Source of the DNA: Bdellovibrionales bacterium
Lineage (GTDB): Bacteria; Bdellovibrionota; UBA1018; CAIMNF01
Direction: 5' to 3'
DNA length: 47,804 nucleotides
Assembly: GCA_018969905.1 (NCBI GenBank)
Contig: JAGWXK010000007.1
Coordinates: forward strand, 1-47,804
Shown: positions 411-11,194 of the stretch, one piece after another
How positions within the stretch are numbered: the stretch's first letter is position 1
Layout of the letters: every line of letters begins with the position of its first letter
Notes under the pieces: model-generated
The model's input: only the letters and a program-made list of their open reading frames with translations
What the model was told of the DNA's origin: nothing
Databases searched by the model: none
Translations under genes and position numbers: made by a program

Positions 411-1967
411 ATGAGCTTTGATTATGACAAGGTGAAGGCAAAACAAGAGGATGCGCACGGCAATAGCTGGACCGCGTACTCCGACCTTTTCATGATGCTT
501 TCCACTGTTTTCTTGCTTCTCTATGTTTCAGTAGGTCTTCGAAGTCAGACCTCCGGGGTTGCCGTCCACGAGAAAATCAAGCAACTCACCCAAAAGAACG
601 CGGATCTCGAGCAGCAGCTTCAGGTGTACAACACCCTTCGTGAACAGCACATGAAGAACGAGGCCACCGAAGAGGAGGCCCAGGTTTACGAGAAGCTCAT
701 GGGAAAACTCTCCCTTCTGCAAGATGAGGCGAAAGATGAGAAGAACCGTCTTCGGCAGCAGGCGAAGGAAAATGAAGAGAAGGAATACGCGCTCAACGAA
801 TATCAGCGTCTGATCCGGAACATCATCAACACGAACGTTCTCTCGAAGACCCAGCTCCACAAAAAAGACGTGATCATTGCAAAGAAGGACACCATCAACG
901 AAGAGCAGCGCCAGATGATCGAGGAGCAGGAAGAAGAGATCAATTCGAATCGGGAGAAAATTGCGAGGGCTGAAAAAGACCTGAAGGACAAGATCCGTGC
1001 ACTTCGGGAGGCGCGCGAAAACGAGGAGATTTCAAAGTCCCAGATGGAAAAGCGCATTGCCGAGCTGAAAGAAAAGTCCCAGGAAACGATCGAGGCGCTG
1101 GAGAGAAAGAATCAGAAGGCGCTTCAGAAGTTCGCGGAACAGGAAGCCAAAATCAAATCGGACTTCGAGGCCCAGCTCGCGCAGGAAAAGCTGAGTGCGG
1201 CGGAGCGAGAAAGGCGCATGGCTGAATTTGAGGCAGAGGCGAATGCGCGAGAAGCCGCCTTGAAGGGCAAGGTCAGCGCTCTTGGCTCGAAAGTAAGCGA
1301 ACTTGGATCAAAGGTTGCTCAAGTGGAGGCTGAAAAAGGGCGGGCCCTCGCATCAGTGGACTCCCTGCAAAAGGACCTGAAGCGGGCCCAGGAGCTTGCC
1401 AACGCCAGGAAGGAACTGGCAAAGCGGATCAATTCGGAACTCCGGAAGGCTGGCCTGTCCGGAACCGTGGATGAAAAGACCGGGGATGTGACCCTTGCCT
1501 TCGGAGAAGAATATTTTGATGCCGGCAGCGCCAAGCTGAAACCGTCCATGGAGTCTACCCTCAAGAAGTTCATGCCGGGGTATTCTTCCAGCCTTTTCAA
1601 GGATAAGAAAATCGCAAACAACATCGAGAACGTCGAAATCGTCGGGTTTGCTTCCTCCACCTACAAAGGGAGGTATGTTCCACCTGATAGCCTTGATCCA
1701 AAAGATCGTGAGGCGATTGAATACAACATGAAGCTCAGCTCCCAACGGGCGAATGCGATCTTCAGTCACATCGTCGATACCAAAAAAATGAGCTTTGAGC
1801 ACCAGAAGGATCTTCTTCCCAAGATCAAGGTCGTTGGCCGCGGCTATCTGCCGGAAGGCACCACGGGTAAGGATTTTCCAAAGAATATGACGCAGAAGGA
1901 ATTCTGCGCAAAGTTCAATTGCAACCAGGCCCAAAAGGTCGTCATCAAATTTAAACTGAAGGATTGA
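411..1967 (+). CDS. MotB/OmpA-like stator-type protein with long coiled coil
   Basis: The single N-terminal membrane segment (about residues 21-43, WTAYSDLFMMLS...) carries an aspartate at residue 25, where MotB/TolR/ExbD-type proteins place the ion-binding Asp. Residues about 50-345 are a charged, heptad-rich coiled coil rich in Glu, Lys and Gln. The C-terminal part (about 360-518) looks like an OmpA/MotB peptidoglycan-binding domain (VEIVGFAS and a later YNMKLSSQRANAI). The predicted topology puts the coiled coil and OmpA domain in the periplasm. SD GGGAG lies 9 nt before the ATG. The next gene, 10 nt downstream, is the MotA-like partner. At 518 aa it is much longer than classic MotB (about 300 aa), and the coiled coil is the unusual part. 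It is probably an energised, wall-anchored motor or gating protein; the substrate is unknown. Zorya ZorB is a relative, but no other Zorya gene is present. Confidence 0.8.
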   Translation: MSFDYDKVKAKQEDAHGNSWTAYSDLFMMLSTVFLLLYVSVGLRSQTSGVAVHEKIKQLTQKNADLEQQLQVYNTLREQHMKNEATEEEAQVYEKLMGKLSLLQDEAKDEKNRLRQQAKENEEKEYALNEYQRLIRNIINTNVLSKTQLHKKDVIIAKKDTINEEQRQMIEEQEEEINSNREKIARAEKDLKDKIRALREARENEEISKSQMEKRIAELKEKSQETIEALERKNQKALQKFAEQEAKIKSDFEAQLAQEKLSAAERERRMAEFEAEANAREAALKGKVSALGSKVSELGSKVAQVEAEKGRALASVDSLQKDLKRAQELANARKELAKRINSELRKAGLSGTVDEKTGDVTLAFGEEYFDAGSAKLKPSMESTLKKFMPGYSSSLFKDKKIANNIENVEIVGFASSTYKGRYVPPDSLDPKDREAIEYNMKLSSQRANAIFSHIVDTKKMSFEHQKDLLPKIKVVGRGYLPEGTTGKDFPKNMTQKEFCAKFNCNQAQKVVIKFKLKD

Positions 1968-1977
1968 GGAGAGCGCT

Positions 1978-3030
1978 ATGAGCACGGGAGTAACAGGGTA
2001 TTTCTTGGATCTGTTGGTAACATTCGGAAAGGAGCTTCTCCTTCCATTCCTGACCTTCGGGTTTGTCTCGGCGGTTGCCCTCCGGTTCCTGATTTACTGG
2101 ACGGTGAAACGGGAAGAGTGGTTTGTGATGGAATTCGAGCGCAGGCTTCAGCGCTATCTGATTCATGAGAATCCGCACGGGGTGTTCTCCTTCACGGTGA
2201 CCCTGAAGAGGATTCTGGAAAAGACCTTCTATGAGTTGTTCCAGACCCGCAGTGAGATGCATCGCCGGAAGTTCGACCACATCATGGCTCCCAGCGACCG
2301 GATCTTTTTGATTCAGCAGGGATCAGCCTACCTCGTTCGGGATTCGATCAAGTACGCCGCAACACTGCGAAAGGATGATGGAGTGGAGGAAAAGGATGAG
2401 CTTGTGGAGGTTTCAAAACACGCCCTTTCCTTGAACCCTTGTTTTACCAAGCTCTTCGGGATTTTCCCGATCGGGGCCTTGAACGACTTCCTGAATCTGC
2501 TGCCAGGGCTTTTCATTGTAGGCGGTATTTTCGGGACCTTTCTCGGGATCATGAAGGCGCTTCCGGAACTTCAGGGAATGAACCCGAGTGACGCGGAAGG
2601 TACGAAACTGATCATGGACACCTTTCTCGTAAAGATCGCGTTTTCCATGAGTACATCGACCATGGGGATCCTGTACTCGGTGGCGTACACGATTTTCAAT
2701 TCGTTTGTGAATCCGGAGAAGCTCTTTGTGGAGGTGGTGAACCGTTATGAGCGGAACCTCCATCAGCTTTGGCGCAAGAGCCGGGACAACGATCTCACCG
2801 AACTTACCCGCTTTGACGAACACCGCGATCCGGTGGAAGCCCTTGCCGAGCTGGCCTTGAAAAAGGAAATCGCTGCGGACGAATCGAAACGGTTGAAAAA
2901 ACAAACGGAAGATCGCCGGGGCATGAATTACACAGGGACCTCCCGGGGTAAGAATGCACCACCGCCGATGGCCGCAATCAATCCAAAGTCTTCACGCGAT
3001 GACGAAGGGAACGGGGACTCAGCTGCTTGA
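1978..3030 (+). CDS. MotA/TolQ/ExbB-family proton-channel-like protein
   Basis: 350 aa. There are three predicted membrane helices at about residues 14-43, 170-194 and 212-243. The last two contain the pattern typical of the MotA/TolQ/ExbB family (LLPGLFIVGGIFGTFLGI, then FSMSTSTMGILYSVAY), with small and hydroxyl residues that line the ion path opposite the partner's Asp. A cytoplasmic loop of about 125 residues separates TM1 and TM2. A charged tail of about 100 residues follows TM3. The topology is nearer to TolQ/ExbB (three helices) than to flagellar MotA (four). It follows the MotB/OmpA-like gene by 10 nt and overlaps the next start, so the three are surely co-transcribed. It should form the ion-conducting ring around the upstream protein; the process it powers is not shown. 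Confidence 0.8.
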   Translation: MSTGVTGYFLDLLVTFGKELLLPFLTFGFVSAVALRFLIYWTVKREEWFVMEFERRLQRYLIHENPHGVFSFTVTLKRILEKTFYELFQTRSEMHRRKFDHIMAPSDRIFLIQQGSAYLVRDSIKYAATLRKDDGVEEKDELVEVSKHALSLNPCFTKLFGIFPIGALNDFLNLLPGLFIVGGIFGTFLGIMKALPELQGMNPSDAEGTKLIMDTFLVKIAFSMSTSTMGILYSVAYTIFNSFVNPEKLFVEVVNRYERNLHQLWRKSRDNDLTELTRFDEHRDPVEALAELALKKEIAADESKRLKKQTEDRRGMNYTGTSRGKNAPPPMAAINPKSSRDDEGNGDSAA

Positions 3031-5294
3031 AACCAGGCCTTAGAATCCGCATGCGCTTTGATGGGCGCGATACCGAGGTGGATGTTGGCGACGATCAGTG
3101 TGTGATCGGTCGAGCCGATTTCCTTGCTGTGCGGATGCCGAACTGCCCGACCATGAGTCGTGAGCACCTGCGGGTGGAGTATGGAGATGGCAAGATCTGG
3201 ATTACCGATCTTGGTTCTTCCAACGGAACCTTCCTGAGCGGTCGAAGACTACCACCGAAGACTCCCATCGAGTATCGCGGACAGGAGCTGACCGTCGGGG
3301 ACCTGGAAATGGGTACGAAGGTGTGGATTCTGTACAATGACACCATGGCGCAGACCAACAAGGCCATAGAGCTGAGCGAGCGTATTCAGCTTTTGCAATT
3401 TGAAATCGCCGAACTCGAAAAGGGAAAGCTTTCAATCGAGGAAAAGCAGCAAGTCATGGTGAAGAGGGTCGAGGACCTGATTTTCCGCGAAGTGGAGCTT
3501 TTCAAGTCCATCGACGAGCAGAAGAAAAAAATTGAAGAGTGCATGATGGAAGCAGAATTCATCGAGCAGACCTTGAAGGATTGGAGAGCGAAGAAAGAGG
3601 CGGCCGAGCTCGCCCTCAGCCAGCATGAGGCCAGCCTTGCGGGAATTCAGGAATTCAACAGCGAGGAGGAGCGCCAGCTCCTGGAAAAGAAGGCGGAACT
3701 CGAGGCCTACCGCGCGAGCCTTGAGCAGGACCGGGATCAGGCAAAGTCCAGATTCGATCTTGAGCTGGAACAACTTCAGGCGGAGGCGAAGCTAAAGCGT
3801 ACCCAGATTGAAAATGAAATCGAGGAACTGCGATCAAGGAAGCTCACGCTGGAGCGGGAGCTCGAAGCGGCCAAGATCGAGCTTGATACCGCCGAACAGC
3901 GCGAGCCCGAACTCCGGGCCGAATTGCGGGCAATGGAAGAAAGTCTCCGATTGGCCCGAATTGAGATGGAGGGAATCCAGGACCAGATTCCGCTCCGGAA
4001 AGCAGAGCTCAAGGATCTGGAGGCAATGGTATCCAGCATCCGCAAGGAGATCGAGGCATCCCAAGGGAAGGCTTTGCTCATCATTCAGGCCAGTGAGGCG
4101 GAAGCACGAAGGATTGAGTCCGAGTCGGCCGTGAACGTGGCAAGAAAGATCAAAGAGTGCGAGGATGAAATCGCGAAATCCCGCGAAGAGTGGTTTGGCG
4201 CAAGCGAACAAAGAAAGAGGCAGCTCGAAGAAGAGATCCGTGCCCGCGACGAACAGGCGGGGCAGGCGATGGCGGCGCTCAAGACGAGTTTTGAAGCACA
4301 AAGGGCGCGGGAACGGGAGGCGCTGGAGCTTGAGATCAAGACGGCGCAGGATCGGTTTCAGGCCGAAAGCAAGGCGGCGGCTGAAAAGTTTCAAAGTGAG
4401 CAGGCTGCGACGACCAAGGCCTGGAATGAGGAGGTCCGTGCAACCAAGGAGCGGGATCTTCAGGACATTCGCTTGATTCGTGCAACAGAAGAGCAGAAAA
4501 TGCGAGAAGTGATCACGGATCATCGTGTGCGGTTTGCAAAGCAAGTGTCTGCAAGCGCGCTTGCAAAAATTACCGGAACCGACGCCAGCCTGAAGCCAGT
4601 CATGACCGGTCTTGAGGCGGAATTGATCAGGTCAATCGAGGATTATGCGCGGGGTGAGGGATACCAGGTCGAATCCCATGAGGTAAGCCAACGGCGTTTT
4701 ATTCGGAAAACGATTGCATGGGCCGCGGGCAGCGTTGCAGTGATTTTTGCCTTGATCTATGGCCCGGGTTTTCTCGCAAAGAAGATCGATGTCCTGAAAG
4801 CTGAAAATGCTGCCGAGAATGTGCAGTTTATGAAGGAGCTGCGCGAGCAAAGAGAGCGAATGCTGGCTCTGCAACTTGAACCCAGAGTTGAATTTCAAGA
4901 TGGGTATGTGGATAATATTCTCTACAATCCAGGGTATCTTGCTCTGAAGCAGGACGAGCCGGTGCAAAAAGAGTGGACCGCTGTTTTATCGAAATTCTTT
5001 TTTGAGGTGCTCTTGCTCGATGATCAAAAGGTCGTGAATTACATACCCGTGGAGACGTCGCTGATTCGCGCACTGGCCGATGTGAACGAGGTATTGAATA
5101 CTGCGAATTTCGATGTGAATCTTAAGAAGATGAGGCAGATCGAGGAAGAAAAACAGTCGGAGCTTTGGATCGCGGCGGGCAGTAAGGATAACTGGATCAA
5201 GATCAGAAAACGCGAAGCTCAGTTTTTTCAGGAAAAGTCAAAAACCATTCTTGAACAAAAAAGTTCAGAGAGAACGCCTGCCGGTTCAAACTAA
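3027..5294 (+). CDS. FHA-domain, coiled-coil, single-pass membrane protein
   Basis: 755 aa from a TTG start at 3027 that overlaps the preceding TGA; an in-frame ATG at 3051 would remove the first strand of the FHA domain, so TTG is preferred. The FHA domain covers about residues 5-100, with GR at 28-29, SREH at 44-47 and DLGSSNGTF at 61-69: an intact phosphothreonine-binding loop set. A very long coiled coil (about 115-550) follows, then one membrane helix (about 562-583) and a C-terminal domain of about 170 residues that should be periplasmic. The FHA part is therefore cytoplasmic. Coupling to the MotAB-like pair suggests that a phospho-Thr signal or scaffold controls the motor, loosely like FHA protein GltG with AglRQS in Myxococcus gliding. 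That parallel is inference; there is no clear sequence match to GltG beyond FHA. Confidence 0.8.
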   Translation: MKPGLRIRMRFDGRDTEVDVGDDQCVIGRADFLAVRMPNCPTMSREHLRVEYGDGKIWITDLGSSNGTFLSGRRLPPKTPIEYRGQELTVGDLEMGTKVWILYNDTMAQTNKAIELSERIQLLQFEIAELEKGKLSIEEKQQVMVKRVEDLIFREVELFKSIDEQKKKIEECMMEAEFIEQTLKDWRAKKEAAELALSQHEASLAGIQEFNSEEERQLLEKKAELEAYRASLEQDRDQAKSRFDLELEQLQAEAKLKRTQIENEIEELRSRKLTLERELEAAKIELDTAEQREPELRAELRAMEESLRLARIEMEGIQDQIPLRKAELKDLEAMVSSIRKEIEASQGKALLIIQASEAEARRIESESAVNVARKIKECEDEIAKSREEWFGASEQRKRQLEEEIRARDEQAGQAMAALKTSFEAQRAREREALELEIKTAQDRFQAESKAAAEKFQSEQAATTKAWNEEVRATKERDLQDIRLIRATEEQKMREVITDHRVRFAKQVSASALAKITGTDASLKPVMTGLEAELIRSIEDYARGEGYQVESHEVSQRRFIRKTIAWAAGSVAVIFALIYGPGFLAKKIDVLKAENAAENVQFMKELREQRERMLALQLEPRVEFQDGYVDNILYNPGYLALKQDEPVQKEWTAVLSKFFFEVLLLDDQKVVNYIPVETSLIRALADVNEVLNTANFDVNLKKMRQIEEEKQSELWIAAGSKDNWIKIRKREAQFFQEKSKTILEQKSSERTPAGSN

Positions 5295-8875: not shown

Positions 8876-9045
8876 GCATCGTGTATGTGCTGGTGCCGTT
8901 CGCTCTTTTGATGGGTTTTGGTTTTTTGTGGATGTTTGTTGCGAGTGCCAGATCAGGTCAGTTCGAGGATCTAGTCACTCCGGCATATCGGATTTTGATG
9001 GATGAAACAGAATTGAAGAAGGAGAAGAAAAATGAGCAAGTCTGA
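8872..9045 (+). CDS. ccoS: CcoS, small cbb3 oxidase assembly protein
   Basis: 57 aa beginning MSIVYVLVPFALLMGFGFLW, with one N-terminal membrane helix (about 3-24) and a short polar tail containing GQFEDLVTPAYRIL, close to the CcoS pattern GQFDDLDTPAxRIL. The start overlaps the ccoI stop (ATGA) and the stop lies 14 nt inside ccoNO. CcoS is needed for insertion of haem and copper cofactors into cbb3 oxidase in other bacteria. It is too short to be found by ordinary ORF length cut-offs. Confidence 0.88.
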   Translation: MSIVYVLVPFALLMGFGFLWMFVASARSGQFEDLVTPAYRILMDETELKKEKKNEQV

Positions 9046-11194
9046 CTCTCAAATGGAACATATGGAGACCTTTCATTATGATGATGAAATCGTAAAAAGA
9101 TTCACCCTGGTAACCCTGCTTTGGGGGTTGGTGGCGTTTCTAGTCGGTCTTTATGTGGCGCTCGAGATGGCATTCCATCAGTTGAATTTCGGAATCTCCT
9201 TCATCACGTTCGGAAGGCTGCGGCCCCTGCACACCAATGCTGCCATCTTTGCGTTTGCAGGAAATGCCATCTTTGCCGGGATTTATTATTCCGCGCAAAG
9301 GGTTTTAAAGACCCGAATGTTCTCGGACAAATTGAGCAAGTTTCACTTTTGGGGCTGGCAGGCCATCATTGTGGCAGCGGCACTCACGCTTCCACTTGGA
9401 CTTACCCAGGGGAAGGAATATGCAGAGCTCGAATGGCCGATTGATCTCATGATCGCGGTGGTGTGGGTTGCGTTCGGGATCAACCTGATCGGCACAGTGA
9501 TTCAGCGCCGGGTGAAACACATTTATGTTGCGGTCTGGTTTTACATTGCAACCTTTGTGACAGTTGCGATTCTTCATGTCGTAAACTCGGTTTCAATTCC
9601 CGTAAGCCTTTTCAAAAGCTACTCGGCCTATGCGGGCGTGAGTGATGCCCTCGTTCAGTGGTGGTATGGGCACAATGCGGTTGCCTTCTTTTTGACCACA
9701 CCCTTCCTTGGGCTCATGTATTACTTCATTCCAAAGGCGGTGAATCGTCCGGTTTATTCCTACCGGCTTTCGGTGGTTCACTTTTGGACACTGGTGTTCA
9801 TCTACATCTGGGCCGGGCCCCATCACCTTTTGAACAGCGCGGTTCCGGACTGGGCTCAGACCGTGGGAATGGCATTCAGCGTGATGCTCTGGATTCCATC
9901 CTGGGGTGGAATGATCAACGGACTTCTTACCATTCGAGGGGCCTGGGACAAGCTCAGAACCGATCCGGTGGTGAAGTTTCTCGCGCTTGCACTGACCTTC
10001 TATGGAATGTCGACGTTTGAGGGCCCGCTTCTCTCGATCAAGAGTGTGAATGAGCTTGGTCACTATACCGACTGGATCATTGCCCACGTCCACTCGGGAG
10101 CCCTCGGCTGGAACGGGTTTTTGAGCTTCGGAATGATTTACTTCCTGGTTCCGGTGCTTTGGCGTACGGAACTTTATTCGAAACGTCTTGCAAATCTCCA
10201 CTTCTGGACCGGCACCATCGGAATCCTGCTCTATGTGATCTCGATGTATACCGCAGGGATCACACAAGGAATGATGTGGCGGGAGGTGAATGCGGAAGGA
10301 GCGCTGGCGTATCCCGACTTCGTGCAGACGGTGATCCGGATTGTTCCGCTCTATGCAATTCGTGCGCTGGGCGGAGCCGTGTACCTGGGCGGTTTCGTGG
10401 TGATGATCTACAACATCCTGAAGACCATTCAACTTGCCCCGAAAGCGGAAAAACAGGAAACCCGCGATGAGTTCCCGAGGTTTGTGCAAAAGTCATTCTT
10501 TTCAGAGCTTTCCGAGGCGAAGTCCTTTTCCCACCGGATGCTCGAGGGAATGCCGATGATCCTGACGGTGCTTGCGGTCGTTGCGATCTCCATAGGCTCC
10601 GTCATCTCGCTTGCCCCGATGGTTGCGACCAATGCCATGGTTCAGCCCAACTATGACAAGGAACTGAATCGCCCGTATACGCCCCTGCAACTTGCGGGTC
10701 GGGACATCTATGTTCGGGAAGGGTGCTACACCTGTCACTCCCAGATGATCCGAAAAACCGTGGGGGATGTGCTTCGATACGGGCAGGAGTCCAGGATCGA
10801 GGACTCCATGTACGATCACCCGTTTCAGTGGGGATCCCGCCGGATCGGGCCTGATCTTGCGCGTGAGGGAAAACGCTACAACCACCTCTGGCATTATCGT
10901 CACATGAAGGATCCGCGCGAAGTGGTTGCCGGATCCGTGATGCCGACTTATCCGTGGTTGTACAAGGACAAGGTCGATTTCGGAAGTCTTCAAAAAAGGA
11001 TCTCGGCCATGAAGACCCTGGGAGTTCCGTATTCGGATGAGGAAGTCGTGAATGCAGAGACGAATGCAAGGTCGGAAGCGGAAGCGATTTTGAAGGATCT
11101 AAGTGCGGATGGAGTGACTCACGCAAAGGTCGAGCATGAAATCATTGCACTCATTGCTTATCTCCAGAAGCTTGGACAGCGAGGTGGACAATGA
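9032..11194 (+). CDS. ccoNO: Fused CcoN-CcoO: catalytic plus monohaem subunit of cbb3 cytochrome oxidase
   Basis: 720 aa. Residues about 1-485 are CcoN, with many membrane helices and the haem/CuB ligands (HTNAAIFAFAG; WWYGHNAVAF; GPHHLLN; HVHSGALGWNGF). Residues about 505-720 are CcoO: a membrane anchor near 515-540, then a periplasmic cytochrome c domain with CYTCH at 565-569 and later GSVMPTYPWLY for the axial Met. The reading frame is continuous through the junction, so both subunits are one polypeptide. CcoN and CcoO are separate genes in most proteobacteria; fused CcoNO is known in Bacteroidota and some others. The enzyme reduces oxygen to water with high affinity and pumps protons. Its start lies inside ccoS and its stop overlaps ccoQ. 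Confidence 0.95.
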   Translation: MSKSDSQMEHMETFHYDDEIVKRFTLVTLLWGLVAFLVGLYVALEMAFHQLNFGISFITFGRLRPLHTNAAIFAFAGNAIFAGIYYSAQRVLKTRMFSDKLSKFHFWGWQAIIVAAALTLPLGLTQGKEYAELEWPIDLMIAVVWVAFGINLIGTVIQRRVKHIYVAVWFYIATFVTVAILHVVNSVSIPVSLFKSYSAYAGVSDALVQWWYGHNAVAFFLTTPFLGLMYYFIPKAVNRPVYSYRLSVVHFWTLVFIYIWAGPHHLLNSAVPDWAQTVGMAFSVMLWIPSWGGMINGLLTIRGAWDKLRTDPVVKFLALALTFYGMSTFEGPLLSIKSVNELGHYTDWIIAHVHSGALGWNGFLSFGMIYFLVPVLWRTELYSKRLANLHFWTGTIGILLYVISMYTAGITQGMMWREVNAEGALAYPDFVQTVIRIVPLYAIRALGGAVYLGGFVVMIYNILKTIQLAPKAEKQETRDEFPRFVQKSFFSELSEAKSFSHRMLEGMPMILTVLAVVAISIGSVISLAPMVATNAMVQPNYDKELNRPYTPLQLAGRDIYVREGCYTCHSQMIRKTVGDVLRYGQESRIEDSMYDHPFQWGSRRIGPDLAREGKRYNHLWHYRHMKDPREVVAGSVMPTYPWLYKDKVDFGSLQKRISAMKTLGVPYSDEEVVNAETNARSEAEAILKDLSADGVTHAKVEHEIIALIAYLQKLGQRGGQ

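Follow-up and report, generated by a model that had tools for sequence, protein, structure and literature searches.

The described systems closest to the genes reported here are the Zorya anti-phage system with its ZorA-ZorB motor, the flagellar stators MotAB and PomAB, the Agl-Glt machinery of Myxococcus and Bdellovibrio (AglRQS, GltG) and the Tol-Pal and Ton complexes (TolQR, ExbBD). Zorya defence needs an Asp residue, a peptidoglycan-binding domain and the ZorA tail (PMC11890865), and in most MotAB homologues the gene for the B subunit follows that for the A subunit (PMC12505986). Here we describe a three-gene set with the reversed order, B-A, followed by a third gene, F, on the forward strand of a 47,804-nucleotide stretch of DNA from a Bdellovibrionales bacterium (contig JAGWXK010000007.1 of assembly GCA_018969905.1), referred to as the window. 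Gene B (411..1967) encodes a ZorB/MotB-like anchor subunit of 518 residues; gene A (1978..3030), a pore subunit of the ZorA class of 350 residues; and gene F (3027..5294), a protein of 755 residues that combines an FHA domain and a coiled coil with a single membrane helix and an all-alpha C-terminal domain. No published description of such a motor family, or of its role, was found in the open-access literature.

A gap of 10 nt separates B from A, and A overlaps F by 4 nt; F starts with TTG, with an alternative ATG at 3051. When compared with a relative whose proteins are 95% identical, the ratio of nonsynonymous to synonymous substitution (dN/dS) was ~0.017 for B and ~0.021 for A, silent sites being saturated at this distance. 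Values near 0.02 mean that A and B are functional genes. The three open reading frames (ORFs) lie exactly at the positions first given, and B-A-F is a conserved unit of real genes under strong purifying selection. An earlier sequence-only reading had proposed an ion-driven machine of the MotA/MotB class with an FHA partner. As a triplet, this is supported by the conservation of the ion-type Asp, the pore residues and the gene set itself, and the reading as a whole is partly supported. We consider it fairly probable that the set encodes a chromosomal, non-defence, peptidoglycan-anchored motor of the ZorAB class, namely an ion-driven A5:B2 complex with a plug-in cytoplasmic regulator.

Homology of A and B to the Zorya motor

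Sequence, fold and phylogeny place ZorA and ZorB of Zorya, rather than MotAB, TolQR or Agl proteins, closest to A and B. First, when compared with the PDB, the profile of A matched ZorA chains alone up to E = 0.1 (best, 3.8e-9), and the best match of the B profile, in its OmpA-like domain (residues 346-518, 1446..1964), was ZorB (8vvi_A, 6e-10). Second, the significant matches in a fold search with the model of B were solely ZorB chains (8qyd_F, 5.9e-7; 8vvn_A, 8e-5); among solved structures, those of Zorya (8qyd, 8vvn and 8vvi) come nearest to both subunits in sequence and fold. Third, in a tree of A proteins, the three types distinguished below and the ZorA of the same genome stand together, apart from the MotA and TolQ/ExbB-like proteins of that genome (100/99 on the separating branch). 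The Pfam family MotA_ExbB remained under its cut-off for the A of the window (15.1 vs 22.9 bits), and OmpA barely exceeded its own for B (27.6 vs 27.2 bits; 3.8e-6). The description of B as MotB-like and of A as a TolQ/MotA-like channel is incomplete, in that their nearest kin are ZorAB rather than MotAB or TolQ.

The set conserves a trait of the superfamily of 5:2 ion-driven motors, in which the single helix of B bears an Asp and the pore helices of A bear Thr/Ser. The sole membrane helix of B, as judged by hydropathy (residues 25-43, 483..539), starts with Asp25 (codon 483-485), which lies within a W-T-[SA]-Y-[SA]-D-L-F motif and is conserved throughout the phylum (alignment of 38), in agreement with the ion-type Asp that had been noticed in the only helix of this protein. 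In A, Thr187 (2536..2538), within GTFLG of the second membrane helix, and Ser227 (2656..2658), a pore-ring candidate in the third, are both invariant; accordingly, the Asp and the channel residues both persist in orthologues. The ion-type Asp, the Ser/Thr pore residues and an OmpA-like anchor domain at the C-terminus are shared with ZorA-ZorB.

Beyond this core, however, the set is unlike Zorya. B precedes A and carries 284-491 residues of extra periplasmic coil, A lacks the long cytoplasmic tail of ZorA (350 residues, versus 458 in the genome's own ZorA and 729 in the solved one), and the partner in this chromosomal, obligate unit is F or, in other lineages, a cyclic-nucleotide or ankyrin protein. 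Neither ZorC and ZorD nor ZorE was found beside the triplet, which has no conserved neighbour and whose F matched no PADLOC model. The claim that the set is not Zorya is therefore true for the effectors and untrue for the motor, which is itself of the ZorAB class.

Given this class, A and B could belong to a diverged Zorya anti-phage system, with F or a protein encoded elsewhere as the effector, a reading that we regard as very unlikely. No nuclease or helicase domain was found in F (Pfam), and none is conserved nearby; ZorD matches in 28 genomes all remained below the cut-off and were mostly limited to the generic helicase region; searches of plasmids, phages and viral contigs gave no relatives; and the ZorA tail, needed in Zorya, is absent from A. 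Moreover, the same genome has on another contig (L115; C112, 1-9000) four ORFs in the order ZorA-ZorB-ZorC-ZorD, of 458, 266, 393 and at least 1,008 residues, with conjugation-like genes alongside. PADLOC recognised ZorA, ZorB and ZorD in this cluster; the third ORF, of 393 residues, matched no PADLOC model and is ZorC by position only. The set of the window is thus a system of its own, distinct from the Zorya copy of the genome. The ZorB1 label that PADLOC assigns to B (PDLC00609) was not accepted as Zorya membership, because this model gives B and the genome's real ZorB nearly equal scores (105.7 and 100.2 bits).

The set is not a flagellar stator either, although the absence of flagellar genes that had been put forward as the reason is true only of the window; the genome is flagellated, with FliG and FliM, and this argument is therefore insufficient. 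An auxiliary stator would suit a flagellated genome and the MotB-like motif WTxYxDLF of B, and the set shares with MotAB and PomAB a presumed 5:2 class, the WxxYxD helix and the OmpA-like anchor. Yet B-A-F is present in two genomes in which FliM was not detected (G250, 97% complete; G252, 99%), and is missing from many flagellated genomes with FliM, so that it neither requires FliM nor co-occurs with the flagellum. In addition, A groups with ZorA, on a branch apart from MotA/PomA and the genome's own MotA proteins, and the reversed gene order, the long coil and the FHA partner are further differences, which together make an auxiliary stator highly improbable. On a further contig of this genome (L116; C78, 47-4747), a FliG-like membrane protein of 660 aa and a membrane protein of 300 aa are followed by MotA and MotB as a pair and by a gene for a lipoprotein. 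The main flagellar FliG lies elsewhere (contig C111), and these L116 genes may represent rotor-stator parts put to a non-flagellar use.

The Tol-Pal and Ton complexes share the three-helix topology of the pore subunit and an ion-driven force on the envelope, but B has an OmpA-like domain and a long coil, TolA and TonB are lacking, and A lies far from the genome's TolQ/ExbB-like proteins in the tree. The likeness to Agl-Glt that had been drawn stands insofar as, in both, an ion-driven motor is paired with an FHA protein having one membrane pass (GltG in Agl-Glt), but it is a looser analogy. AglR groups with TolQ-like proteins (PMC12505986), and the C-terminal domain of GltG is TonB-like (PMC3169522), unlike that of F, which is helical and matches no Pfam family. 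AglR/Q/S and a Glt neighbourhood were not found at the triplet, the flanks of which are without any conserved gene.

A conserved unit with exchangeable regulators

In a sample of 369 Bdellovibrionota genomes, A was found in 180. These were sorted into genomes with type 1, type 3 or weak A by the E-values of the A search and by the loci read out, in which B lies directly upstream of A and, in most, F directly downstream. A whole-genome search found the C-terminal domain of F in 126 of the 127 genomes with a type 1 A, as conservation of the triplet in related genomes would predict, and in none of the 11 type 3 genomes; F with no A detected was limited to 4 genomes. The co-occurrence of type 1 A and F has a Fisher p of ~1e-72, shared ancestry not being corrected for. 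No further conserved neighbour of A, B and F was found in the flanks of the loci compared, only clade-local ones. Downstream of F in three loci from probable Bdellovibrio genomes (L059, L060, L078), for example, there is an FtsY-like gene, named by eye from its sequence.

Types 2 and 3 are distant relatives of A, each forming one clade in the tree, and each has its own regulator in place of F. In all 18 type 2 loci fetched, a protein of 146-164 residues of the cyclic-nucleotide-binding type adjoins A; in 17 loci it follows A directly on the same strand, and in one (L105) it is convergent. Three of these proteins were confirmed to carry PF00027 (1e-14 to 1e-15), and the others were judged by a common sequence pattern. 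In type 3 (four loci), the partner gene is transcribed divergently, and its product combines membrane segments with ankyrin repeats. The partners of types 1 and 3 cross the membrane, whereas that of type 2 is soluble. Every type 1 genome tested (five of five) had at least one Hanks-type kinase, and every type 2 genome tested (six of six) had a class III cyclase, such that signal sources exist for F and for the type 2 partners.

Domains of F and B, and the C-terminal end of A

The FHA domain of F (3054..3341; Pfam FHA, 2.3e-11, 44.4 vs 20.7 bits) keeps all residues for phosphopeptide contact, namely R29, S44, H47, N66 and G67, and the corresponding pattern (GR...SxxH...NG) is retained in 28 of 31 F proteins. 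In the remaining three (L013, L054, L052) these residues are lost, and those proteins probably no longer read phosphothreonine. Thus, the phosphothreonine input that had been suggested finds its residues in place, but F is one of three regulator types, and the input is probably lost in three of the 31 F proteins. The domain is followed by a cytoplasmic coiled coil (residues 108-545, 3348..4661), the sole membrane helix (residues 559-577, 4701..4757) and a predicted periplasmic domain (4758..5291). The sequence-only reading had correctly described a coil of about 430 residues and then a membrane helix, but had missed this last domain, which comprises ~178 conserved residues and is all-helical in the AlphaFold2 (AF2) model (mean pLDDT, the model's confidence score, 86; core, ~95 or more). 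It matched neither a Pfam family nor, with Foldseek at E<=0.001, a fold in the PDB.

Coiled coils were assessed by a windowed test of heptad-like periodicity against 300 shuffles, a whole-length Fourier test having been dropped as insensitive because the heptad phase drifts. The period of F exceeded 295 of the 300 shuffles (5/300 reach it), and that of B at residues 45-345 (543..1445) exceeded all of them (0/300 equally periodic), in line with AF2 helices and with the coil of about 300 residues first noticed in this protein, which is predicted to be periplasmic. The OmpA, FHA and A controls did not show heptad periodicity in the same test. The coil of B ranges from 284 to 491 residues in relatives, and its length is weakly correlated with that of F (Spearman 0.42, p 0.03, no phylogenetic correction). 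In one type 2 locus (L100:6748-11970), B has 1,740 residues, with ~1,500 residues of predicted coil between the helix and the OmpA-like domain; the listed ORF starts inside the helix motif, and therefore its true start is upstream.

As followed with a segment hidden Markov model, the B proteins of types 1 and 3 have a strongly conserved proximal coil segment (residues 60-155, 588..875) that type 2 lacks: B proteins of B-A pairs with no downstream F (type 3 loci, L068) score 84-121 bits, and those of type 2 at most 3.4 bits. Since the segment is conserved where the partner crosses the membrane and absent where it is soluble, it may well be the part of B that contacts a membrane-crossing regulator. 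In the OmpA-like domain, N439, L442, S443, R446, C499 and C504 are invariant; the AF2 model of B has a mean pLDDT of 73.5, with mostly ~90 in this domain.

In A, ~100 residues follow the last helix, and the final part of these is a variable linker. The protein ends in S-A-A (3019..3027), and the last two residues are small, [AVGST][ASG], in 62 of 62 A homologues of all types, mostly preceded by a basic residue; by comparison, A, S or G is the last residue in 15% of other ORFs, of which 5% fit the fuller three-residue pattern when all are counted. As the pair is encoded by 46 different codon pairs, it is selected as protein, which rules out an origin in translation coupling or a Shine-Dalgarno sequence; such an origin is also countered by the persistence of the motif where no same-strand gene follows. 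However, AA or AS also ends three MotA-like proteins of the same genome, and hence this signal may not be specific to the A family. The small pair resembles the C-terminal tags of protease substrates.

Elsewhere in the window, an ORF at 9032-11194 is cbb3-oxidase-like, its CcoN part running on into a CcoO-like cytochrome c part.

A proposed motor acting on the envelope

Our favoured reading is as follows. First, A and B would assemble as A5:B2 in the inner membrane, where ions crossing between Asp25 in the B dimer and the ring of Ser/Thr residues in A would turn A around B, while the OmpA-like domain, at the far end of the long periplasmic coil, would hold B to peptidoglycan. Second, F would serve as a dedicated regulator or coupling arm of this motor. 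With its periplasmic helical domain probably docked close to the conserved proximal segment of the B coil, F would read a phosphothreonine mark by means of its cytoplasmic FHA rod and thereby engage, gate or report the motor. Third, in other lineages a cyclic-nucleotide-binding or membrane-ankyrin protein would replace F as the plug-in regulator, so that engagement would be set by phosphothreonine through F and by cyclic nucleotide in type 2. As for the load, our leading guess is that the motor exerts force on the envelope, for locomotion on surfaces or for related work there.

Several observations weigh against this proposal. The unit is patchy, since only 4 of 12 genomes of the window's own genus are of type 1, with one more having a distant A; the branches of the A tree are long; and the sequence links to ZorAB are remote (E ~1e-8 to 1e-10). 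In the GFxS region of B, Phe takes the place of the His of the ZorB GHTS, and binding of peptidoglycan could therefore differ. Finally, as a single helix, a coil of 284-491 residues would by our arithmetic measure 42-73 nm, which exceeds the ordinary width of the periplasm; the B rods cannot span a normal periplasm upright, and must be folded back or run sideways.

The same parts could instead form an envelope sensor, in which strained or damaged peptidoglycan, felt via the long B rod, leads to opening of the A/B channel, and the signal is passed inward by F or, in the other types, by its cyclic-nucleotide or ankyrin counterpart. Such a role would parallel the proposal that the Zorya motor is triggered by peptidoglycan perturbation (PMC11890865), and would agree with the signalling-type domains of the partners and with an A that has no tail to bring torque into the cytoplasm. 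Nevertheless, domains of the FHA and cyclic-nucleotide kinds are usually receivers of signals and not emitters, in better agreement with motor control than with sensing, and we hold a sensor to be possible but rather unlikely.

A specific form of the regulated motor favoured above, in which it would supply the missing motor for gliding in Bdellovibrionota, acting with or instead of Agl-Glt cores, is in our view unlikely. The gliding machinery of Bdellovibrio was called unidentified in a 2026 review (PMC13104615), the triplet occurs in most finished genomes of one group (f11/g89, probably Bdellovibrio), and Agl-Glt includes FHA proteins (GltG; PMC3169522). However, four Agl-Glt-like core complexes are already present in Bdellovibrio (PMC3169522), aglQ bd1480 is surface-induced (PMC9140294), and the triplet has no linked adhesin or outer-membrane partner and a patchy distribution. 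The broadest version of the proposal, a separate class of 5:2 motor conserved across Bdellovibrionota, with a coiled-coil rod of tens of nanometres that runs along the periplasm or is wound up inside it and a phosphothreonine, cyclic-nucleotide or ankyrin control domain, that is the unrecognised engine of surface locomotion or prey handling, is a speculation to which we give little credence at present.

If the proposed motor is correct, the motor core of Zorya would not be confined to phage defence, but would have an ancient housekeeping branch. It would also provide concrete, deletable genes with which to ask what motor powers the force-dependent activities of the Bdellovibrio envelope, gliding among them; and one motor core with three regulators would represent a natural experiment in the switching of rotary motors.

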